Assembly (NCBI GenBank): GCA_018607905.1
Contig: JABBAP010000070.1
Span: 1 to 38,672 of the forward strand
Source of the DNA: Paracoccaceae bacterium
Lineage (GTDB): Bacteria; Pseudomonadota; Alphaproteobacteria; Rhodobacterales; Rhodobacteraceae
Length of the DNA stretch: 38,672 bases
Direction: 5' to 3'
Below the pieces are notes generated by a model, which did not search any database, had not been told where the DNA came from, and saw only the letters and a program-made list of their open reading frames with translations. Numbering within the stretch: the stretch's first letter is position 1; the number at the start of each line of letters is the position of its first letter. Shown here one piece after another: positions 4,300 through 38,413 of this stretch. A program made the translations under genes and the position numbers.

Positions 4300-5172
4300 T
4301 TATTTGATAAATTCAGGGCCACCTGTGATGGATGCGTCGGGTTCGCCGACGATTTTGGTGTCTTTGCCCGCGTAGGGGATTTGCCCAAGAATGGTGCGCA
4401 TGGCAGCGATGCGCGCACGGCGTTTGTCGTCTGATCGGATCACATGCCAGGGCGCGTGGGGGCTGTGGGATTTGGCATGGGTTTCCTGGATCGCTTTGGT
4501 GTATTCATCCCATAAATACAGGCCTTTGACGTCTATTCCTGACAGTTTCCACTGCTTTAGACGATCACTTTCGCGGTCCAGAAAACGGCGCAGTTGTTCG
4601 GCGCGACCAACGGTGAGCCAGAGTTTTGTGAGGATGATATCATCGTCGCTCAGCATCTTTTCAAAGCCGTTCACCTGGTCGAAAAAATGGGCGCGTTGGT
4701 CTGGGGTGCAAAAGCCAAAAACTTGTTCCACAACGCCGCGATTATACCAGCTGCGATCAAACAAAGTGATCTGCCCGCCGTTGGGTAAGTGTTTGATATA
4801 GCGTTGAAAATACCACTGCGTTTGTTCATCGTCAGTGGGTTTGGAGAGGGCGACTGTTTTGGCAATTCGTGGGTTTAAAAATTCCCTAACCCGCTTGATT
4901 GTGCCGCCTTTTCCTGCGGCGTCGCGGCCCTCGAACACCACGGCGATGCGGGCACCCGTTTCGGCCACCCATGCCTGCATTTTAACCAGTTCTACTTGTA
5001 AATCCTTTAACGTGTCTTCGTATTCATCGGTATCCATACGTTTTTCATAGGGATAACCATCATCGAGAATACGGTTTTTCTTTGCGTTTTCAAGGGCCTC
5101 ACGTATTTCTGCGGGTGCATCGTCGGTGAAAAATTTGGTGATTGCGCCGTCAAAAGGTTTGCTGCTGGCCAT
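4300..5172 (-). CDS. ppk2: Polyphosphate kinase 2 (PPK2)
   Basis: PPK2 moves phosphate between polyphosphate and nucleoside diphosphates, generally favouring GTP/ATP synthesis from polyphosphate. The 290-residue protein carries the Walker A motif EGRDAAGKGG (81-90), the Walker B region ITLFDRSWYNRG (135-146) and the arginine-rich lid RRFLDRESDRLKQW. These are the hallmarks of single-domain class I PPK2. The frame stays open 63 codons further upstream, but that part would be cysteine- and arginine-rich, has no family similarity, and would run through the Pho-box-like array. I therefore start at the ATG reading MASSKPF. It heads a ppk2-tetR unit. Confidence 0.94.
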   Translation of the reverse strand: MASSKPFDGAITKFFTDDAPAEIREALENAKKNRILDDGYPYEKRMDTDEYEDTLKDLQVELVKMQAWVAETGARIAVVFEGRDAAGKGGTIKRVREFLNPRIAKTVALSKPTDDEQTQWYFQRYIKHLPNGGQITLFDRSWYNRGVVEQVFGFCTPDQRAHFFDQVNGFEKMLSDDDIILTKLWLTVGRAEQLRRFLDRESDRLKQWKLSGIDVKGLYLWDEYTKAIQETHAKSHSPHAPWHVIRSDDKRRARIAAMRTILGQIPYAGKDTKIVGEPDASITGGPEFIK

Positions 5173-5295
5173 TGGTCGTTCCCTTTTCTTTTGGCGGAGT
5201 ATGGCGTGGAAAACGGAGCCGCGCAACGGGGCGTACGGGCGAGTAAGGTTTGGGCGAAAACAGCGTTTTTTGGGGCCAAAAAATGTCCGCAAAGT

Positions 5296-5337
5296 GTATG
5301 CAATTGGTATGCAAAGCGTATGGCACCTGTATGGCAG
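5296..5337 (-). promoter_or_regulatory. Four-copy Pho-box-like array upstream of ppk2
   Basis: Read on the minus strand, four heptamers follow each other at exactly 11-bp spacing: CTGCCAT, GTGCCAT, TTTGCAT, ATTGCAT. Each is followed by AC. PhoB boxes are tandem CTGTCAT-like heptamers with 4-bp spacers, that is, the same 11-bp period. The array is 124 bases or more upstream of the ppk2 start and lies wholly between ppk2 and the hydrolase stop codon. The heptamers are imperfect (CTGCCAT rather than CTGTCAT), and I see no clean -10 element downstream. Function in phosphate control is an inference, supported by the nature of the target gene. Confidence 0.55.
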
Positions 5338-5367
5338 TTTTGACGTTAACACATCGCGCAACGCTTC

Positions 5368-6309
5368 TTAGGGATTGGTTAACCGCGCAACGGAGGCCAA
5401 GATTTCGTCGTGGGCGTAGTGGTGCACAGAATGGCCGACATTTGGGACAAGTGTGTAAATGGCATGGGGCAGTTGTTTGGCCAAAACATCGGCGTGAATG
5501 GAGGGTGGGATCGAAACGTCAGCCGCGCCGTGGATGATTTCAATCGGCATTTTCAATTCGGGATAGCGCACCGATTGGGATTCGATATGGGGCAGCAATC
5601 CGTTCACTTGGCGACCATTGGCGCGAATTGCGGTTTTGCTGAGCGTCAGGCCTGAACCGATGTAATCGAGGTAGCCTTTTGGCGTGGGTTGGGGTGCAAA
5701 CAGCGATTGCATCGTATCCTCCACCAAAGAGGCGGGCGCAAATGCAGACAGCGCCGTTGCGATGATCGGGCCTGTGTAGGGACCAGCGGCAAGCTCATAC
5801 AATTTGGAGGGCGGCACGGTCCACGGATTTGAAACTGCGTTCATCAGCAGAATGCCGTTGGTGGTGTTTGGATATTCCAGCCCCCAAGCCAGCGCGACTG
5901 CGCCACCGTAGGAATAGCCCGCAACAATGGCAGAGGGATGGCCAAGCGCATCTGTCGCGGCTTTGAGCAACGCCGCCTGTTCGATCAGGGTTTCGCCGCG
6001 ATCATGGATTGTGTCTGTGTAGCCGTGGCCCGGGCGATCAAATGTGATGACGGTGTGGGTTTTCGCCAGTTTGCCCGAGAGTGCAAAGGTGAAATCACGC
6101 AGGTTGCCGCCCGCGCCGTGGATGAGCACGAGGGTCGGGCCAGAGCCTTCGATTAAATAGTGAACGCGAGTGCCATCAATGGTGATGAAATCGCCAAGGG
6201 GCGGGTGTGTTTTCATCGTGCGCGCATCGTTGCGATGGCTTTTGAATGCGGCAAGCCCCGTGGCCAGCGCCACGGCGAGCCCCGCCGTGAACGCAGCTTT
6301 CTTGATCAT
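5368..6309 (-). CDS. Alpha/beta hydrolase, probably membrane-anchored or exported
   Basis: A 313-residue alpha/beta-hydrolase fold protein. The oxyanion-hole motif LIHGAGG is at 62-68, the nucleophile elbow GYSYGG places Ser133, and the likely acid and base are Asp264 ([10 protein letters not shown]) and His293 (VGHSVHH). The N-terminus ([20 protein letters not shown]) is a hydrophobic signal or anchor without a lipobox. The substrate cannot be told. Its start overlaps the metA stop by four bases (ATGA), so translation is likely coupled to metA. The family includes many esterases and haloperoxidase-like enzymes. A direct role in methionine synthesis is not implied by sequence. Confidence 0.88.
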
Positions 6310-20054: not shown

Positions 20055-20177
20055 GCCTGAGGTATTTGAACGGGTTAAAAGTTTTCCTAGCGTAACGCTT
20101 GCTCTTATTTGGTTTTGGCCGCATTCTTTGGGCCGAAAATAAGGGCGCGAGAAGCGCTATTCTGGGAGGAAAAACAC

Positions 20178-22070
20178 ATGGCCATCACTGATCTGGCGTC
20201 TGTCGTCGCGGTTGAAACCGAAATGCCTGTTGAGGACCGTTGGACGGCGAAAACCGTTTATCAGCAGTTGGAACAGACTTGCGAAAAGTTTGGCACCAAA
20301 GATGCGGTGAGTTTTCAGCTGTTGGGGGGGCCGAATGACCCAAACATCACGCTAAGCTGGAACGAGACCAAGGATCGCATTACGCAAGCGGCGAACCTGT
20401 TTCGCTCGCTCGGTGTGGGGCCAAAAGATGTAGTGGCGTATTTGTTGCCAACGACTCACGAGACCGCGATCACCATGATGGGCGGCATGACGGCGGGCAT
20501 TGTTGCGCCGATCAATCCAACCCTGCAACCAGACCAGATATCAGCATTGTTGCGCGAAACAGGGGCCAAGGTTTTGGTGACCTTGAAGGCATTTCCAAAG
20601 ACAGAAGTCGCACAATTGGCAGCCCAAGCGGTTGCGGGTGCGCCCAATGTGACGACCGTAGTAGAAATTGATTTGCTGGCGCATTTGACGGGTTTGAAGA
20701 AGTTTATCGTGCCGCTGGTGCGCCCGAAGGTGGAAACCAAGCACCATGCAAAGGTGATCGAATTTAACGCGGCATTGGCAAGCCAGCCAAAAGACAAGCT
20801 GACGTTCGAGGAAGATTTGAACGATCCCTATTGCGCGTATTTCCACACGGGTGGAACGACGGGCATGCCAAAGATTGCGCAGCACAAACATTCTGGCATT
20901 ATTTTCAACGGCATGTTGGGCAATATTCTGTCGCTTGACGAAAGCTCGGTGGTGATTTGTCCGCTGCCGATGTTCCACGTTATGGCGGCGCATGTGTTCT
21001 GGTCTGCGGTGCTGTTTGGGGGCGGGCACATCGTGTTTCCGACCCCTGCGGGGTATCGCGGTGACGGTGTGTTCGACAATTTCTGGAAGTTGGTCGAGCG
21101 GTATAAAGCCACGTATATGGTGACGGTTCCGACCGCAGCGGCGGCGTTGCTGCAACGGCCAGTTAATGCGGATATTTCATCATTGAAGGGCGCTATGTGT
21201 GGCTCTTCGCCGTTGCCAATCGAGTTGTTCAAGCGTTTCCAAAGCGTTACGGGCGTTGATATTCTTGAAGGCTATGGCATGACCGAAGCCACGTGTTTGG
21301 TGTCTGGCAACCCTGCGGACGGTGAAAAGGTGATCGGTTCCGTTGGTTATCGGTTCCCGTATACCGACATCAAGATTTTGGATTGCGCCGAAGATGGCAG
21401 CATTCTGAAAGAGATGGGTCCAGATGAAGTGGGCGAGATTTGCGTGCTGAATGCGGGTGTGAATGTGGGCGAAACCTATACAGATCCGACCAAGAATGTT
21501 GGGTTGTATGCGGGTGGAACACATTTGCGCACGGGTGATTTGGGGCGGATTGATGGCAATGGGTACCTTTGGATCACGGGGCGTGCGAAGGATTTGATTA
21601 TTCGGGGTGGTCACAACATTGACCCCGCGATGATCGAAGAGGCGCTTGCGGGGCATCCTGATGTTGGGTTTGCGGGCGCGATTGGCCAGCCAGATGCACA
21701 TGCGGGCGAGGTGCCTTGCGCGTTTGTGGAATTGGTTGAAGGCGCGACGGCCAGCGTTGATGATTTGCTGGCGTTTTGTAAGGAAAATGTCCACGAGCGG
21801 GCGGCGCAACCAAAGTATCTGGAGATCATGGACGAGCTGCCGAAAACCGCGGTTGGCAAAATCTTTAAGCCTGATTTGCGACGTTCGGCGATTACGCGGA
21901 TTTACAACGCGGCGTTGGCGGATGCGGGTGTTGGTGCATCGGTTATGAAGGTGGTTGAAGACAAGAAACGCGGCTTGGTTGCGCAGTTGGAGAAATCTGA
22001 TGCGGCTGTGACTGACGACGCGGTGAAAGCGGTGCTGGGCGCGTTCATCAATCAGTGGGAATGGGCGTAA
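20178..22070 (+). CDS. AMP-forming acyl-CoA synthetase
   Basis: A 630-residue ANL-superfamily enzyme that activates a carboxylic acid with ATP and CoA. The phosphate loop YFHTGGTTGMPK, the A5 motif EGYGMTEAT, the A7/A8 region LRTGDLGRIDGNGYLWITGRAKD and the C-terminal Lys motif KTAVGKIFKPDLR are all in place. The overall layout resembles long-chain or general acyl-CoA synthetases of Rhodobacterales, but chain-length preference cannot be read. The start at MAITDLASV is chosen because GGGAGGA precedes it by seven bases; the frame extends 23 codons upstream without family similarity. It is a single-gene unit between two strong terminators. Confidence 0.92.
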   Translation: MAITDLASVVAVETEMPVEDRWTAKTVYQQLEQTCEKFGTKDAVSFQLLGGPNDPNITLSWNETKDRITQAANLFRSLGVGPKDVVAYLLPTTHETAITMMGGMTAGIVAPINPTLQPDQISALLRETGAKVLVTLKAFPKTEVAQLAAQAVAGAPNVTTVVEIDLLAHLTGLKKFIVPLVRPKVETKHHAKVIEFNAALASQPKDKLTFEEDLNDPYCAYFHTGGTTGMPKIAQHKHSGIIFNGMLGNILSLDESSVVICPLPMFHVMAAHVFWSAVLFGGGHIVFPTPAGYRGDGVFDNFWKLVERYKATYMVTVPTAAAALLQRPVNADISSLKGAMCGSSPLPIELFKRFQSVTGVDILEGYGMTEATCLVSGNPADGEKVIGSVGYRFPYTDIKILDCAEDGSILKEMGPDEVGEICVLNAGVNVGETYTDPTKNVGLYAGGTHLRTGDLGRIDGNGYLWITGRAKDLIIRGGHNIDPAMIEEALAGHPDVGFAGAIGQPDAHAGEVPCAFVELVEGATASVDDLLAFCKENVHERAAQPKYLEIMDELPKTAVGKIFKPDLRRSAITRIYNAALADAGVGASVMKVVEDKKRGLVAQLEKSDAAVTDDAVKAVLGAFINQWEWA

Positions 22071-32692: not shown

Positions 32693-33427
32693 TTAGCCCG
32701 CGTGGGGTTTGCGGTTGTCGGCCACTTCTTGCGCGAGTTCCAGAGTGTGTGTCGCAAGGTTGGCGAGGGCGGTTTCGGTTTCTTCGGCGTTTTGTGCTTC
32801 GAGCGCGTCGGCGATTTTTGTGTGTAGATCAACGATTTTCTCGCGTTTTCGCGCTGTAAACGTGATCATGTTCATGAGGGGTTCGATGGCTTCTACTGCG
32901 CCAGCGAGTTGGTAGGACATCACTGGGTTTTGGGCGCTGTCGACCAGTGCGCGGTGGAATGCAACGTCAGAGGCGCAGAAACTTTCGTCTGTGAGGCCTG
33001 GTTGGCCTTGGCGGTGAATTTCGGCGCGCATGGCGGCGAGTTGATCGGGCGTGCGACGCTGTGCGGCGAGCGGGATGCAAGCGCGTTCCAGCGCAAAGCG
33101 GGCTTCGCAGGCGGTTTCAAAGCTGACGGCGTTCATGGACAACAGCAGCGTGGAAGTGGTGATTTGCTGGCCGTAGGCGTCTTCAAAGCTGAGTTTGTTC
33201 ACAAATGCGCCCCCCGTTGCACCGCGTTGGGTGCGGATCAGGTTTTGCGCGGCGAGGCGTTTGAGGGCTTCGCGTACTGTAGGACGGGAGACGTCGAATT
33301 GATCGCAAAGTTCGGATTCAGAGGGCAGGCGTTGGTTCACGATCAATTGGCCGTTCACGATGCTGTCGCGGATGGCGGTTGCGATCTGGGCTGAAAGCTC
33401 TTTGGCTTGGTCGAGTTCGTATTTCAT
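32693..33427 (-). CDS. GntR/FadR-family regulator with FCD domain
   Basis: A 244-residue repressor-type protein. The winged helix (about 7-75) contains [20 protein letters not shown] and [11 protein letters not shown]. The FCD ligand domain (about 100-230) keeps the metal/ligand residues Asp154 and His158 in [16 protein letters not shown]. It is divergent from the DUF2182-to-acuI operon, and a FadR-type palindrome lies between them, so it very likely controls both itself and that operon. From memory a GntR-family repressor (DmdR) that responds to acrylyl-CoA has been described for dmdA-acuI in roseobacters; this gene could be its counterpart, but I cannot confirm orthology. The start at MKYELDQ has GGGG six bases upstream; the longer open frame runs through the operator. 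Confidence 0.9.
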
Positions 33428-33450
33428 TTGCAGCCCCAGAATTAAATGTA

Positions 33451-33482
33451 AGACAATTGACGATTTTAATTGTCTGACAATT
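33451..33482. promoter_or_regulatory. FadR-type operator between gntR and the DMSP operon
   Basis: TTGTCTGACAA at 33470-33480 matches the TNGTNNNACNA consensus of FadR-subfamily GntR regulators. It is nested in the palindrome AATTGTC-T-GACAATT (33468-33482). A third half-site GACAATT at 33452-33458 forms a second inverted repeat with AATTGTC at 33468-33474. Confidence 0.8.
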
Positions 33483-33502
33483 AAATCTCGCTTAGTCATA
33501 TC
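33474..33502 (+). promoter_or_regulatory. Candidate promoter of the DUF2182-acuI operon
   Basis: CTGACA (33474-33479) and CATATC (33497-33502) are spaced 17 bp apart. The -35 lies within the operator palindrome, so repressor binding would block RNA polymerase. The first gene starts 30 bases downstream. Confidence 0.6.
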
Positions 33503-33531
33503 ACAAGAATCCTGTTCGTAAAGGCTGCCTC

Positions 33532-34305
33532 TTGTCCGTTCTTGCCCATCATTCTGTTCGCACGACCCTGTGGCTCGCATTTTTTGCGGCTATCGTTGTG
33601 GCGTGGTGGATGATGTATTCCATGGCGGGGCAGATGGGGCTGAACTGGTACGGTGCGCGGGTTGGCATGATGGATATGGCGGGAATGCCGCCGATGAACA
33701 GCCTGCAAATGCTGGTGCCGATGTGGGCGATTATGATGATCGCGATGATGGGGCCGACCTTTGTGCACACGATGACCACGTATGAGGCGCTGATGCGGTC
33801 TGCCAATGGCACGTGGGCTGGGTTGATCGGTGTTGTTGCTGGGTATTTCATTGTTTGGGTTCTGTTTGGTGCGGGTATTGCGCTGGTGCAGGCGGGGCTG
33901 ATGCGGCTCGGTTGGCTCGATATGTTTGGGCAATCCACGGGGTTGTGGGCCACGGCGGCGCTGTTGATTGTGGTGGGCTGGTTTCAGTTCACGTGGATCA
34001 AAGAGGTATGCCACGGGGTGTGTCATGCGCCGATGCAGTATTTTCTGGGCAACTGGCGCACGGGTGGCCTTGGTGGGCTGCGCATGGGGCTGGGCCTTGG
34101 GGCGTTCTGTGTGGTGTGTTGCTGGGGGTACATGGCGCTGGGGTTTGTTGGCGGGTCCATGAACCTGTTGTGGATGGGGCTGGCGACAGTTCTGATGGTG
34201 TTTGAGAAGCTGCCACAGGTGGCGCATTACGTTATGCGCCCTGTGGGGGTGTTGTTGATCGTTGCGGGGCTGGCGGTTGCTGGTTGTGCTGGTGGGGTTT
34301 GGTGA
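33532..34305 (+). CDS. DUF2182 metal-binding-like integral membrane protein
   Basis: A 257-residue protein with six or seven transmembrane segments. The family hallmark is the methionine-rich stretch MPPMNSLQMLVPMWAIMMIAMM (52-73), then CHGVCHAPM (Cys160, Cys164) and CVVCCWGYM (Cys193, 196, 197). These pairs suggest soft-metal (for example copper) binding, but no biochemical role is established to my knowledge. Translation must start at TTG (AAGG seven bases upstream); the first in-frame ATG would remove the first helix, and a stop blocks earlier starts. It is the first gene of the operon and is followed after two bases by a small membrane-peptide gene. Confidence 0.88.
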   Translation: MSVLAHHSVRTTLWLAFFAAIVVAWWMMYSMAGQMGLNWYGARVGMMDMAGMPPMNSLQMLVPMWAIMMIAMMGPTFVHTMTTYEALMRSANGTWAGLIGVVAGYFIVWVLFGAGIALVQAGLMRLGWLDMFGQSTGLWATAALLIVVGWFQFTWIKEVCHGVCHAPMQYFLGNWRTGGLGGLRMGLGLGAFCVVCCWGYMALGFVGGSMNLLWMGLATVLMVFEKLPQVAHYVMRPVGVLLIVAGLAVAGCAGGVW

Positions 34306-34307
34306 AG

Positions 34308-34487
34308 ATGGCAAACTCTGTTAAGCTATTGATAATAATTGCGATCATAGCGGTGCCCGCCTTGCTTTATCTTACAGGAAATGCAGACGATCATGGTTTC
34401 AAGATAGCTCTCTACTATGTGGTTCTAGGTGGGCTAGCAATTTACACTTATCGAAATAAACTGAAGGGAGGCCCTAAAAATGGCTGA
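34308..34487 (+). CDS. 59-residue membrane peptide
   Basis: The peptide MANSVKLLIIIAIIAVPALL... has two hydrophobic segments (about 5-21 and 31-46) with a short polar loop GNADDHG between them and a basic end (RNKLKGGPKNG). It starts two bases after the DUF2182 stop and overlaps the DUF1326 gene by eight bases, so it is embedded in the operon. The local sequence is more A+T-rich than the flanking genes. No family is recognised; a small partner subunit of the DUF2182 protein is an inference from position. Confidence 0.7.
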   Translation: MANSVKLLIIIAIIAVPALLYLTGNADDHGFKIALYYVVLGGLAIYTYRNKLKGGPKNG

Positions 34488-35181
34488 GAAGAAAACTAAG
34501 GCTGCGGCTGATCGTATTGAGGTTATGAACAAGCTCGATCAACGCATGACGCCAACGCGGCGTCGTAAGGAAGCGACGAATTGGAGCATTAAGGGAGAGC
34601 TGTTTTTGAACTGTTCTTGCGAAGTGTTCTGCCCGTGTGTTGTATCATTGGGTAAGCACCAGCCGACCGAAGGGTACTGTCATGCTTGGATGGCTATTCG
34701 TATTGATGAGGGCCACTTTGAGGGTGAAGACCTAAGCGGGCTGAATGTTGGCTTGCTGGCGGATATTCCGGGTAAGATGGCAGAGGGCGACTGGAAGGTT
34801 GCCGCGTATATCAGTGAAGAAGCCACGCAAAAGGCCTATGACGGGTTGCTGAAGATTTTCAGTGGTGCGGCTGGCGGGACAACGGGTTTGTTCACGATGC
34901 TGGTGTCCACGATCATTCATGCAGAGCGCACCAAGGTTGAGATCGAAACCAATGGGCGTCGTCGCTCCATCAATATCGGTAAAAAGATCAATGGTGAGAT
35001 CGAAACTATCGGAGGTGCGAACCCTGATGAGGCTGTTGTGATCTCGAACTCTCGCTATTGGATGGGTCCAGACATTATCGCGGCTGTTGGCCTGCGGAGC
35101 CGTGTGCGTGATCACGGTCGCAACTGGGATTTCGGTGGCAAGTCTGCCGAGATTTGCCCGATTGAGTGGTCTGGTCCTTAA
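34480..35181 (+). CDS. DUF1326 cysteine-motif protein
   Basis: A 233-residue soluble protein of DUF1326. The signature is NCSCEVFCPCVVS (44-56) with Cys45, 47, 51 and 53, followed by Cys67 (GYCHAW), which could bind a metal ion. The domain usually begins close to the start of the protein; here about 34 charged residues (MAEKKTKAAADRIEVMNKLD and on) precede it. The central and C-terminal parts (KVEIETNGRRRSINIG, NSRYWMGPDI) are typical of the family. The function is unknown; DUF1326 genes often accompany DUF2182 genes, from memory. A good GGAGG precedes the ATG. The next gene starts 23 bases after the stop. Confidence 0.9.
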   Translation: MAEKKTKAAADRIEVMNKLDQRMTPTRRRKEATNWSIKGELFLNCSCEVFCPCVVSLGKHQPTEGYCHAWMAIRIDEGHFEGEDLSGLNVGLLADIPGKMAEGDWKVAAYISEEATQKAYDGLLKIFSGAAGGTTGLFTMLVSTIIHAERTKVEIETNGRRRSINIGKKINGEIETIGGANPDEAVVISNSRYWMGPDIIAAVGLRSRVRDHGRNWDFGGKSAEICPIEWSGP

Positions 35182-35204
35182 GCCAAACTGGGAGAGGTAG
35201 GCTC

Positions 35205-35705
35205 ATGTCTGTAACACCTGATTGGGTGCGCATGATGGCGCAGTATAATGCTTGGCAGAACGGGTGGATGATCCCTGCGGCCAGTGGATTGTCTGTGGAT
35301 GCGCGCCAACTTGATCGCGGGGCGTTCTTTGGGTCGATTCACGGCACGCTAAGCCATCTTTTGTGGGGTGACAGTCTGTGGATGGGCCGTTTTGACGGGG
35401 GCGATGCGCCTGACGCGCCGATTGAAGCAGGCACGCAGAACTTTCCGGATTGGGATGGGTATGTTGCGGCACGCGGGGCGATGGATCAGCGGATTACGCG
35501 CTGGGCTGCGTCCTTGGGTGACGGCGACGTGCTCGGGGAGTTAACATTTTGGTCAGGTACAAAACAGGCCGATTTGGTGGTCCCCAAGGCCAAGGTGTTT
35601 ACCCACTTCTTTAATCATCAGACCCATCACAGGGGTCAAGTCCACGGTATGTTGACGGGCGCAGGTGTAACCACCCCAGATACCGATCTTTTATTTATGG
35701 AGTAA
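35205..35705 (+). CDS. DinB-family protein
   Basis: A 166-residue four-helix DinB-fold protein. The metal-binding triad is complete: His51 in GTLSHLLWGD, and His138 and His142 in FNHQTHHRGQ. DinB-like proteins include thiol-dependent transferases and isomerases (mycothiol, bacillithiol or glutathione linked), so a role in handling an electrophile such as acrylate or acrylyl-CoA, or a sulfur product of DMSP, is conceivable but unproven. The start has GGGAGAGG upstream; the longer frame back to 35166 overlaps the DUF1326 gene. dmdA follows after four bases, which implies tight coupling. Confidence 0.9.
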   Translation: MSVTPDWVRMMAQYNAWQNGWMIPAASGLSVDARQLDRGAFFGSIHGTLSHLLWGDSLWMGRFDGGDAPDAPIEAGTQNFPDWDGYVAARGAMDQRITRWAASLGDGDVLGELTFWSGTKQADLVVPKAKVFTHFFNHQTHHRGQVHGMLTGAGVTTPDTDLLFME

Positions 35706-35709
35706 CGGG

Positions 35710-36813
35710 ATGGCTTTATTGTCACCTTCGCGTCGTCTGCGGCGCACACCTTTTTCTGACGGCGTAGAGGCCGCTGGGGTAAAGGCCTACACGATTTACA
35801 ATCACATGTTGTTGCCAACTGTGTTTCGGTCTGTCCAAGAGGATTATCATCATCTGAAATCTGCGGTGCAGATATGGGATGTGTCGTGCGAGCGCCAAGT
35901 CGAGCTGCGCGGCCCTGATGCGGGTCGTCTGATGCAGATGCTAACGCCGCGTGATCTGCGCAAGATGCAGGTAGGCCAGTGTTTTTATGTGCCTATCGTG
36001 GATGAAACGGGGGGCATGTTGAATGACCCTGTCGCGGTAAAGGTAACAGAGGATCGCTGGTGGATTTCGATTGCTGATAGCGACCTGCTGTACTGGGTCA
36101 AAGCGATTGCCCATGGCTGGCGGCTCGATGTGTTGGTGGATGAGCCTGATATTTCACCGCTGGGGATACAGGGGCCAAAGGCAGAAGAGCTGATGGCGCG
36201 TGTGTTTGGCGACAGTATCAAGGGCGTTGGCTTCTTTCGCTTTGGCTGGTTCGAGTTTCAAGGACGTGATCTGCTGATTGCGCGGTCTGGCTATTCCAAG
36301 CAGGGCGGGTTCGAGATTTACGTAGAGGGCAGTGATATCGGCATGCCGTTGTGGAACGCGCTGATGGAGGCGGGCAAGGATCTGGATGTGCATGCAGGCT
36401 GTCCGAACCTGATTGAACGCATTGAGGGCGGATTGCTGTCGTACGGCAATGACATGACCGATGATAACACGCCGCACGAATGTGGGTTGGGTCGGTTCTG
36501 TGATACGCAAACGGCCATTGGCTGTATTGGGCGCGATGCGTTGCTGCGGGTGGCCAAGGAAGGCCCGATCCAGCAAGTGCGCGCCATTGCCATTGACGGG
36601 GATGCCGTTCCTGCCTGTGATCGGTGGTGGCCGATACTGGCAAAGGGCAAAAAGGTCGGGCAGGTGACGTCGGCTGCGTGGTCGCCTGATTTCAACACAA
36701 ACGTTTCGATTGGCATGGTGCGTATGACCCACTGGGATGCGGACACGGCCATTCAAGTACAAACGCCAGACGGGCTGCGCGATGCGGCCGTCTATGAAAA
36801 ATTCTGGATTTAA
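35710..36813 (+). CDS. dmdA: DMSP demethylase DmdA
   Basis: DmdA transfers a methyl group from dimethylsulfoniopropionate to tetrahydrofolate, giving methylmercaptopropionate, the first step of the demethylation pathway. It belongs to the glycine cleavage T (GcvT) fold. The 367-residue protein starts with the DmdA-like PSRRLRRTPFSDGVEAAGVKA and has the DmdA-type segments YNHMLLPTVF, GGMLNDPVAVK, SGYSKQGGFEIYVEGS and LLSYGNDMT, which I remember from roseobacter DmdA. A glycine-cleavage T protein or dimethylglycine-dehydrogenase-like domain is the alternative, but acuI directly downstream makes DmdA firm. It starts four bases after the DinB stop, with the preceding GGAG weak. Confidence 0.94.
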   Translation: MALLSPSRRLRRTPFSDGVEAAGVKAYTIYNHMLLPTVFRSVQEDYHHLKSAVQIWDVSCERQVELRGPDAGRLMQMLTPRDLRKMQVGQCFYVPIVDETGGMLNDPVAVKVTEDRWWISIADSDLLYWVKAIAHGWRLDVLVDEPDISPLGIQGPKAEELMARVFGDSIKGVGFFRFGWFEFQGRDLLIARSGYSKQGGFEIYVEGSDIGMPLWNALMEAGKDLDVHAGCPNLIERIEGGLLSYGNDMTDDNTPHECGLGRFCDTQTAIGCIGRDALLRVAKEGPIQQVRAIAIDGDAVPACDRWWPILAKGKKVGQVTSAAWSPDFNTNVSIGMVRMTHWDADTAIQVQTPDGLRDAAVYEKFWI

Positions 36814-36825
36814 TTGGAGAGAGAT

Positions 36826-37815
36826 ATGTTTAACGCATTGATGGTGAATAAAGACGAAGAGGGTAAGACATCCGCGTCGGTAGAGCAGATTAATGAAGAT
36901 CAGCTGATGGAGGGCAATGTGACCGTTGCGGTGGAATATTCCACTGTGAACTACAAAGACGGTTTGTGCATTGGGCCAGGGGGCGGGTTGGTGCGCAATT
37001 ATCCCCATATTCCGGGTATTGATTTTGCAGGGACTGTCGAGAGTTCATCTGATGATCGCTACAAGGCTGGTGATAAGGTTGTTCTGACAGGTTGGCGCGT
37101 GGGTGAGGCCCACTTTGGTGGGTATTCCCAAAAGGCGCGGGTCAATGGCGATTGGTTGGTTCCATTGCCTAAGGGTTTGGACACACGCACGGCGATGGCT
37201 GTGGGGACGGCGGGCTTTACGTCTATGTTGTCAGTTATGGCGCTGGAAGATCACGGGCTGAAGGCGGGCAATGGTCCTGTGCTGGTAACGGGGGCTGCTG
37301 GCGGTGTTGGTTCCGTGGCTGTGGCGCTGTTAGCAGCGCTGGGCCACGAGGTTGCTGGTGTGACGGGGCGCCCTGAAACGGCGGATTACCTGAAATCACT
37401 GGGTGCGACACAGATCGTGGCCCGTGAAGAGATCAACGAGACAATCAAACGCCCAATGGAAGCGGAAACTTGGGCTGGCTGTGTGGATGCGGTTGGTGGC
37501 GACATGCTGGCGCGGGTTCTGGGCCAGATGAAATACGGCGCGTCTGTTGCCGCTGTTGGTTTGGCTGGCGGCGCTGGGCTGCCTGCGACGGTGATCCCGT
37601 TCTTGCTGCGCGGTGTGAACCTGCTGGGCATCGACAGTGTGATGCAGCCTTACGACAATCGTCTGCGCGCGTGGGAGCGGATTGCACAAGATCTGCCGAT
37701 GGACAAGCTGGAAGACATGGTGCGCCCTGCGGTGTTGTCAGACCTTCCCGCGCTGGGAAAAGACATCCTGAAAGGCCAAGTGCAGGGCCGTGTGGTTGTT
37801 GACGTAAACGCCTAA
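36826..37815 (+). CDS. acuI: Acrylyl-CoA reductase AcuI
   Basis: AcuI reduces acrylyl-CoA to propionyl-CoA with NADPH, which removes the toxic intermediate of DMSP breakdown. The 329-residue medium-chain dehydrogenase/reductase shows the YhdH/AcuI features: YSTVNYKDGL (39-48), HIPGIDFAGTV, RVGEAHFGGYSQ and the Rossmann loop VTGAAGGVGSVA (154-165). No zinc-binding pattern is seen, as expected for this group. GGAGAGAG lies just ahead of the ATG; a TTG twelve bases earlier is less likely. It follows dmdA after 12 bases. The dmdA-acuI order is the known roseobacter arrangement. Confidence 0.94.
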   Translation: MFNALMVNKDEEGKTSASVEQINEDQLMEGNVTVAVEYSTVNYKDGLCIGPGGGLVRNYPHIPGIDFAGTVESSSDDRYKAGDKVVLTGWRVGEAHFGGYSQKARVNGDWLVPLPKGLDTRTAMAVGTAGFTSMLSVMALEDHGLKAGNGPVLVTGAAGGVGSVAVALLAALGHEVAGVTGRPETADYLKSLGATQIVAREEINETIKRPMEAETWAGCVDAVGGDMLARVLGQMKYGASVAAVGLAGGAGLPATVIPFLLRGVNLLGIDSVMQPYDNRLRAWERIAQDLPMDKLEDMVRPAVLSDLPALGKDILKGQVQGRVVVDVNA

Positions 37816-37820
37816 AATAA

Positions 37821-37852
37821 GCCGCGTGCGAAGGGTGGTCTTTGCACGCGGC
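37821..37852 (+). terminator. Strong hairpin ending the operon
   Basis: A 13-bp stem GCCGCGTGCGAAG / CTTTGCACGCGGC (one G-U pair) with a GGTGGT loop begins six bases after the acuI stop. It is followed by CCCC rather than T, so it may be a weak terminator or protect the mRNA end. Confidence 0.6.
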
Positions 37853-37939
37853 CCCCATAACACTGGGAATTGATACAAAGTGTGTACCAATGCTTCGCGA
37901 CTTGGCTACTCTGATCCTAAATTGAGAAGGATTAGGTTC

Positions 37940-38413
37940 ATGCTGCGTATTTTTTTAATAATCGGGTTTGTTCTGGGCAGCGTGCCTGCGCTGGCACAAG
38001 ACGATCTGTCAGTTGGGTATTATTATCCCGAGATCACCAGTCAAGAAACCTTCACGCGGGTTCTGGGGCTGGATTTCAAAGCAAGCGCGAAACTGCGCAG
38101 CACGTTCGTCACGGCGATTACCAAATCGCGTTTTGAAAGCCCCGCAAACCCGAATTACGTTATTTTTGCCAAAGGCACGCAACCCCAAAAGCTGGTGATT
38201 GTAGCGTTGGATGATGATGTGTTCAAAACGCTGTACCGTGCGCGTGCAGTGCTGGCACAACTGTCGTCTAACTTGCGCGCTGGGCTGTTCAAAGACGATG
38301 AAAACCTGAGGGTTGCTGGCACGTTTTATGATTTGATGCAGATCATGGAATTCAAAACGCTGGTGATTACTGACGGTGAAAACTGGTCCCACAAAGTGCT
38401 TTTCTCACAGTAA
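37940..38413 (+). CDS. Secreted protein, unknown function
   Basis: The 157-residue precursor has a signal peptide (LRIFLIIGFVLGSVPALAQ, cleavage after ALA-Q near residue 20). The mature part, about 137 residues, begins with YYYPEITSQETFTRVLG and contains NPNYVIFAKGTQPQKLVIVALDD, giving a mixed alpha/beta look. No cysteines or enzyme motifs are visible. I recall similar proteins in Rhodobacterales of unknown role. It is probably a single-gene unit: the hairpin after acuI and about 90 bases separate it from the operon. The shorter start (ATG at 37940) is chosen for the signal peptide, with AAGGATTAGG upstream. Confidence 0.8.
   Translation: MLRIFLIIGFVLGSVPALAQDDLSVGYYYPEITSQETFTRVLGLDFKASAKLRSTFVTAITKSRFESPANPNYVIFAKGTQPQKLVIVALDDDVFKTLYRARAVLAQLSSNLRAGLFKDDENLRVAGTFYDLMQIMEFKTLVITDGENWSHKVLFSQ

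Follow-up and report, generated by a model that had tools for sequence, protein, structure and literature searches.

We analysed a 38,672-nucleotide stretch (the window) of the genome of a Paracoccaceae bacterium (contig JABBAP010000070.1 of assembly GCA_018607905.1, family Rhodobacteraceae), in which the dimethylsulfoniopropionate (DMSP) demethylase gene dmdA and the acrylyl-CoA reductase gene acuI are preceded on the same strand by genes for DUF2182, DUF1326 and DinB-fold proteins. The DUF2182-DUF1326 pair, hereafter the module, lay upstream of dmdA in most dmdA-bearing genomes of the family, and the comparison of these sequences gives good support to a conserved unit with a common operator-like site. 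The families and conserved residues of the module proteins point to metal. In the explanation that we prefer, and to which we give a probability of roughly 40% as a whole, an acrylate-responsive GntR operon would comprise a Cu(I)-handling pair, a DinB S-transferase and AcuI, with dmdA as an optional member.

The module is packed tightly ahead of dmdA and acuI

Six plus-strand genes follow one another in the window with spacings of 2 bases, an 8-base overlap, 23, 4 and 12 bases according to the open reading frame (ORF) list and the sequence, just as the initial annotation had described, and profile scores agreed with the family names that it had assigned. The first gene (33532..34305, TTG start) encodes a predicted membrane protein of the PpoB2 family (PF09948, which we take to be the accession of DUF2182; 175.4 bits against a cut-off of 28.7), and the third (34480..35181) a DUF1326 protein that is soluble by sequence (PF07040; 167.8 bits, cut-off 25). 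The gene for the DinB/STL-fold protein (35205..35705, ATG start at 35205; PF05163, 78 bits, cut-off 23) is followed by dmdA (35710..36813), whose product scored 688 bits with the DMSP demethylase model NF009133 (cut-off 410) and matched the solved chain 3tfh in phmmer with an E-value of 9.9e-110. The acuI gene (36826..37815, ATG at 36826) stands immediately 3' of dmdA on the same strand, across the 12-base gap, as in a dmdA-acuI operon. Its product reached 449.6 bits with the acrylyl-CoA reductase family TIGR02823 (cut-off 297.25) and 424.3 bits with the AcuI equivalog NF051456, slightly under the cut-off of 440, and matched solved chains named AcuI (5gxf) with a phmmer E-value of 3.9e-183. 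A GntR/FCD-family regulator gene (32693..33430, minus strand; PF00392 67.5 bits, PF07729 70.1 bits) diverges from the operon.

The second gene of the run, a hydrophobic ORF of 59 residues (34308..34487, plus strand; ATG at 34308, or 67 residues if an earlier TTG is taken), probably lies outside the conserved unit. It was found in one of 120 family genomes, the window's own, and among the named-genome loci compared only in those from that same genome. Of 117 loci, the window has the longest stretch between the DUF2182 stop and the DUF1326 cysteine motif. We therefore rejected this ORF as a member of the unit because it is an orphan; of the four extra genes that had been proposed to travel with dmdA-acuI, this one fell away, while the conserved unit held in many genera.

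The module is found at dmdA across the family

The 120 family genomes, one per genus, were searched with profiles for dmdA (NF009133), DUF2182 and DUF1326, and the coordinates of the matches were compared. Results showed 54 dmdA genes over cut-off in 49 genomes, those with two dmdA genes being counted once in genome counts. In 37 of the 49, more than chance would bring, DUF2182 and DUF1326 both preceded dmdA on its strand, and the DUF1326 profile match ended 47 to 1,691 bases ahead of the dmdA match. Named genomes were also scanned with a DUF1326 alignment, which yielded at least 585 relatives, of which the best 80 loci were kept. Among these 80, dmdA was present in the gene run in 64, and 10 had the module with acuI and no dmdA, among them Roseobacter sp. 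GAI101 (L123), whose run also includes DinB; four runs stopped after DinB and two after DUF1326, all six but one (L104) near a contig end. Their genera include Litoreibacter, Yoonia, Roseovarius, Ruegeria, Sulfitobacter, Tateyamaria and Amylibacter, so the neighbourhood of module and dmdA is not a peculiarity of this strain, which a search of other genomes had been proposed to settle.

Beyond the family, a class-level sample of 289 genomes contained 26 with dmdA over cut-off, 22 of them from outside the family. These 22 were read over at most 1.5 kb on each side, a range that misses more distant modules in most of them, and for seven of them a span of about 12 kb was read as well, which showed no further module. 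One genome of another family (G491) had an intact DUF2182-DUF1326 pair upstream of dmdA, and in a second other family (G344) remnants of DUF1326 in differing frames preceded an intact dmdA (L258, about 5150-5671). In two of the 22 (G409 and G553), acuI adjoined dmdA.

A palindrome common to the GntR spacers probably marks one operator

In the spacer between the GntR gene and DUF2182 we found a perfect palindrome, AATTGTCTGACAATT (33468..33482), a probable GntR operator and the sole perfect match in the window genome. A weaker operator-like site with two mismatches to AATTGTCWGACAATT lies 24 bp from it (33444..33458). When up to three mismatches to the 15-mer were allowed, the window genome contained 78 sites, compared with 35 for the pattern read backwards.

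A GntR gene diverged from an operon gene in 99 of 128 loci, the facing gene being DUF2182 in 94, dmdA in three, and DinB and acuI in one each. The core TTGTCNGACAA (TTGTCWGACAA) was matched at 9 or more of 11 positions in 98 of these 99 spacers, while in 100 dinucleotide shuffles an average of 7.3 and at most 16 of the 99 spacers reached 9/11; since the motif comes from the spacer of the window itself and the spacers are related to one another, a kinship that shuffling ignores, the shuffles overstate the independence of these matches. In loci without the module, the palindrome preceded dmdA (L074, L078 and L080) or DinB (L075). Because the palindrome is found in nearly all spacers, also where dmdA or DinB leads, one GntR-controlled unit is likely, and the module probably sits downstream of the local dmdA-acuI operator. 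The GntR regulator that had been expected beside dmdA-acuI is thus present and divergent in the window, with one probable operator that appears common to the unit.

The module persists with acuI where dmdA is missing

To follow the module apart from dmdA, we listed by hand from the coordinates the 52 family genomes in which DUF2182 precedes DUF1326 on one strand; reversed pairs, a mixed triple on contig 24 of G036 and fragments were omitted. In 15 of these 52 loci the operon had no intact dmdA, although two of the genomes (G001 and G090) have dmdA elsewhere. acuI was kept in 11 of the 15, downstream on the same strand in ten and divergent, with GntR between, in G004; two others (G030 and G060) reach a contig end.

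The dmdA-less loci were scattered over a tree built from 54 DUF1326 proteins, with 12 changes for 13 rows, and were no more clustered than shuffled labels. At least six changes of dmdA state were forced by supported branches of this quick tree, in which many inner branches are weakly supported, two long branches join, and G030 and G060 were left out; the counts do not separate gain of dmdA from loss. An interrupted dmdA between DUF1326 and acuI in G014 (L084, 4343-5438) argues for loss there. Across the 120 genomes, 39 had both module and dmdA, 13 the module only, 10 dmdA only and 58 neither (p = 1.6e-11, not corrected for descent).

We then compared the module with two other genes of DMSP metabolism. 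SBP56, the family of the methanethiol oxidase MtoX, occurred in 24 of 39 dmdA genomes with the module and 5 of 10 without it (p = 0.72), and in 4 of 13 versus 5 of 58 dmdA-less genomes, a borderline trend (p = 0.052). These tests used 38 of 42 matching genomes, with G023, G031, G037 and G075 (88 to 150 bits) omitted; recounts with all 42 or with unbroken genes only gave p = 0.47 and 1.0 in dmdA genomes and 0.11 (0.108) and 0.16 (0.156) in dmdA-less genomes. In the window genome the SBP56 gene is on another contig than the operon. Cupin DMSP lyases (PF16867) likewise did not track the module, with 24 of 39 versus 5 of 10 in dmdA genomes and 4 of 13 versus 16 of 58 in dmdA-less genomes; the identical 24/5/15/5 tables for MtoX and the lyases in dmdA genomes stem from different genome sets. 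Together, the dmdA-less module loci and the co-occurrence tests shift the link of the module from DmdA towards AcuI and the common regulator. The tie to DmdA or its products that had been suggested at first is thus not borne out, and a methanethiol oxidase link has little support; the electrophile and metal-supply parts of that interpretation are favoured.

DUF2182 and DUF1326 are nearly obligate partners with conserved Cys and Met

A DUF1326 match was present within 5 kb of 64 of 67 DUF2182 matches in the 120 family genomes, and two of the three exceptions were fragments; the two are nearly obligate partners. A second class of pairs (L054-L063) has the order DUF1326-DUF2182, was without dmdA in the loci read, and occurs in several copies in G036.

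Residues were counted in 37 of the 48 DUF1326 proteins and 39 of the 40 DUF2182 proteins that had been clustered, selected by length. Five cysteines of DUF1326 (45, 47, 51, 53 and 67; NCxCxxxCPC and a later C) were invariant in all 37, and the invariant residues were Cys, Gly, Pro and Trp only, with Lys, Glu and His never among them. In DUF2182, M64, M68, M72, M73, K157, C164, C193 and M201 were present in 39 of 39 sequences and C160, C196, C197 and M210 in 38. A search of solved structures by sequence found nothing for either protein at an E-value of 0.01.

The structure model of DUF2182, with a predicted local distance difference test score (pLDDT) of 90.5, reads as seven membrane helices. 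Mean Lys+Arg counts over the 39 sequences were 2.8 for the N-terminus and 1.6, 3.6 and 1.7 for loops 2, 4 and 6, against 1.5, 0.9 and 0 for loops 1, 3 and 5. Loop 1 had the most methionine (3.5); loop 4 had the most cysteine (2.0) and histidine (1.6). The loop counts mostly agree with a topology in which the N-terminus and a Cys/His face would be inside and a Met face outside; loop 1, the longest outer loop, is the weak point of this charge-based assignment. CTR1 copper importers resemble this reading of DUF2182 in having an MxxxM motif in a membrane helix, with Met outside and Cys/His inside. We draw this comparison as an analogy and claim no homology, as CTR1 has three helices where DUF2182 has seven in its model.

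The closest functional precedent is PpoB2 of Marinomonas mediterranea, after which PF09948, the Pfam family of the window DUF2182, is now named (PpoB2, 'Copper chaperone'). PpoB2 delivers copper to the tyrosinase PpoB1 and not to PpoA (PMC2855505). No tyrosinase gene was found with Pfam profiles among the eight proteins scanned at 32693-38413, unlike in the PpoB operon, and the partner of the family member in the window is DUF1326 instead.

The DinB protein carries the histidine triad of STL-type S-transferases

The window DinB protein has a triad of histidines, H64, H151 and H155 (numbered from 35166), each position being conserved in 74 of 75 sequences. All 30 aligned members matched Pfam DinB and three of the 30 matched mycothiol S-transferase; the profile matched solved YizA with an E-value of 0.0026 and another DinB-like chain with 4e-5. 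In Bacillus, STL/DinB proteins are S-transferases that depend on a metal and conserve three histidines (PMC5815605; PMC10950700), and BstA carries the same kind of triad (PMC5815605). The window protein has in common with these S-transferases (BstA-BstH, mycothiol S-transferase) the fold family and the triad, with the last two histidines four residues apart. Its putative S-transferase role comes from the family. Roseobacters use glutathione.

Proposed role in acrylate-responsive electrophile tolerance

We propose that one GntR-controlled transcription unit would cover the module, DinB, dmdA and acuI. DUF2182 and DUF1326 would work together as a metal-handling pair, with Cu(I) the most likely metal, as the methionine-rich membrane sites and the PpoB2 family suggest. 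In this pair, a seven-helix inner-membrane DUF2182 with periplasmic methionines and cytoplasmic CxxxC/His would hand the ion to, or take it from, the cytosolic five-Cys DUF1326, the direction of transport being left free by the proposal. DinB would act as an STL-type metal-dependent S-transferase that traps thiol-reactive products, and AcuI would reduce acryloyl-CoA, so that AcuI, DinB and the pair may be the protective arm of an acrylate-responsive operon. While acryloyl-CoA attacks thiols, the pair would protect or replenish the copper bound to thiolates, and dmdA would be a frequent but optional member under the same signal. A more specific version is doubtful: there, an acrylate-sensing GntR would switch on DUF2182 as a Cu(I) conduit, its partner DUF1326, DinB and AcuI as the electrophile attacks copper-holding thiols, and the operon would mainly serve electrophile tolerance. 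If it were true, DUF1326 would gain its first function, and the DMSP-demethylation operon would be mainly an electrophile-tolerance operon, often also with dmdA.

Several results weigh against the proposed role, among them the kinship of the spacers and the failure of MtoX, among dmdA genomes, and of the DMSP lyases to track the module. Twelve of the 49 dmdA genomes have no module at dmdA (G001 and G090 among them carry it elsewhere), so the module is dispensable. DinB was in the gene run in 57 of the best 80 named loci and is missing from many operons. Two dmdA-less module loci, G090 and G092, have no acuI nearby; a G090 gene beside the module, first clustered as acuI, was dropped when the window AcuI found no match in that locus. 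Induction by acrylate is known from R. pomeroyi and not from a locus read here. The fold search with the DUF2182 model returned no match under an E-value of 0.001 (best 0.25), and the fold matches of DUF1326, given below, were weak. No copper enzyme appeared among the matches listed (25 of 30 families) for 32 of 51 operon-neighbour proteins elsewhere, nor among ten further neighbour proteins scanned. A HlyD/CusB-type match beside the pair in L060 scored 28 bits, under the cut-off of 30, and one outer membrane efflux protein was seen among neighbours of the pair in other lineages.

Alternative explanations

The pair may instead serve metal handling as a housekeeping function of its own and have been joined to the GntR promoter in an ancestral roseobacter, with descent keeping it there. 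Such simple descent of an old neighbourhood is a serious rival, although we consider it rather unlikely. It would account for the dmdA genomes without the module and for pairs at other sites that lack dmdA and acuI and often show the opposite gene order. Among 200 genomes sampled across the phylum, 21 had DUF1326; 20 of the 23 matches from outside the family were read, several of them from one genus, DUF2182 adjoined in 19, and none of these 20 loci had dmdA or acuI at 80 bits or more. However, operon genes recurred in 34 to 46 of 61 clustered loci (DinB in 16), whereas flanking clusters reached 21 at most; the unit survives repeated absence of dmdA on the tree; and the module precedes dmdA in G491 of one other family and, as a decayed remnant, in G344 of a second.

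It is unlikely that the pair handles a metal other than copper, such as zinc for DinB. DinB/STL enzymes require a divalent metal (PMC5815605) and DinB is often in the run, but the pair persists without it in many loci, and the Met-rich membrane sites together with the PpoB2 precedent favour copper.

Less likely again is a supply of copper to MtoX, which removes the methanethiol that demethylation produces. The idea draws on the PpoB2 copper-chaperone family of DUF2182, on MtoX being a copper enzyme (PMC5739008) and on the borderline trend in dmdA-less genomes, and an SBP56 gene adjoins the GntR of the module-dmdA cluster in G043 (L034, 7432-8859) or directly follows dmdA in G066 (L035, 6674-8101). 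The G066 locus, however, is without the module, and its SBP56 scored 108.8 bits against the MtoX-model cut-off of 650; the module persists without dmdA, SBP56 showed no association with it among dmdA genomes, and mtoX has SCO1/MauG neighbours as partners of its own (PMC5739008). The mtoX-SCO1-mauG operon resembles the proposed arrangement in linking copper-related maturation genes to a product of DMSP (PMC5739008), but it consists of different proteins.

Least probable is that DUF1326 is an acetoacetate-decarboxylase-like enzyme acting on a C3 acid of DMSP or acrylate breakdown, with DUF2182 as its transporter: all eight Foldseek matches of its model (pLDDT 84.8) under an E-value of 0.001 were acetoacetate decarboxylases or the related MppR (best 1.4e-5, probability 1.00), but the template modelling (TM) scores were only 0.34-0.43, and the acetoacetate decarboxylase family uses a catalytic Lys, whereas no Lys, Glu or His was invariant in the 37 sequences.

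Relation to the described dmdA-acuI operon

In Ruegeria pomeroyi, dmdA is followed directly by acuI as in the window, where the GntR gene is divergent; a GntR gene is presumably also a neighbour of dmdA in R. pomeroyi. Both R. pomeroyi genes are induced by DMSP and acrylate and not by methylmercaptopropionate, acuI protects from acrylate, and acuI was directly 3' of dmdA in 24 of 26 dmdA-bearing roseobacters (PMC3338564). A review also gives the dmdA-acuI linkage (PMC5395565). In many genera, two or three extra genes stand between GntR and dmdA that are unmentioned in the available text of the R. pomeroyi account (PMC3338564). We found no description of DUF2182/DUF1326, or of dmdA with DinB, in the literature searched, and the first genes of the dmdA-acuI operon in many genera appear undescribed there; coverage was partial, so this absence does not establish that they are new.

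The dmdA-acuI operon matters for how much sulfur from oceanic DMSP reaches the food web, and its dmdA gene serves widely as a marker. If the pair handles copper as we propose, metal supply would be tied to the turnover of DMSP and acrylate, and a testable role would follow for DUF1326 and for its pairing with DUF2182. Polar mutations in this operon and expression data on it may report more than demethylation.

Neighbouring genes and other features

Just 3' of acuI lies a hairpin (37821..37852, plus strand; -26.3 kcal/mol, z = -4.5, no T run) that may mark the end of the transcription unit. A simple promoter/terminator scan missed it and yielded nothing above its shuffles. It is followed by an ORF of 177 residues (37880-38413) without Pfam or NCBIfam match, in which an inner ATG gives a signal-peptide-like start.

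In two genomes an acyl-CoA synthetase gene of the NF006020 type is inserted between DUF1326 and dmdA (G056, L041 5788-7380; G032, L042 5098-6765). We rejected this AMP-binding ligase as DmdB, as it scored 294 bits against a cut-off of 822 for 3-(methylthio)propionyl-CoA ligase and exceeded the cut-off of NF006020, the model for acyl-CoA synthetases in general. A window ORF at 20109-22067 belongs to the same cluster. The SBP56 genes of G043 and G066 are followed by a 329-residue and a 218-residue ORF, of which the window-genome relative has no Pfam match. To the right of acuI (L034-L093), recurring neighbours encode a class-V aminotransferase, a BCCT transporter, a DNA photolyase, a cyclopropane fatty acid synthase and a universal stress protein.

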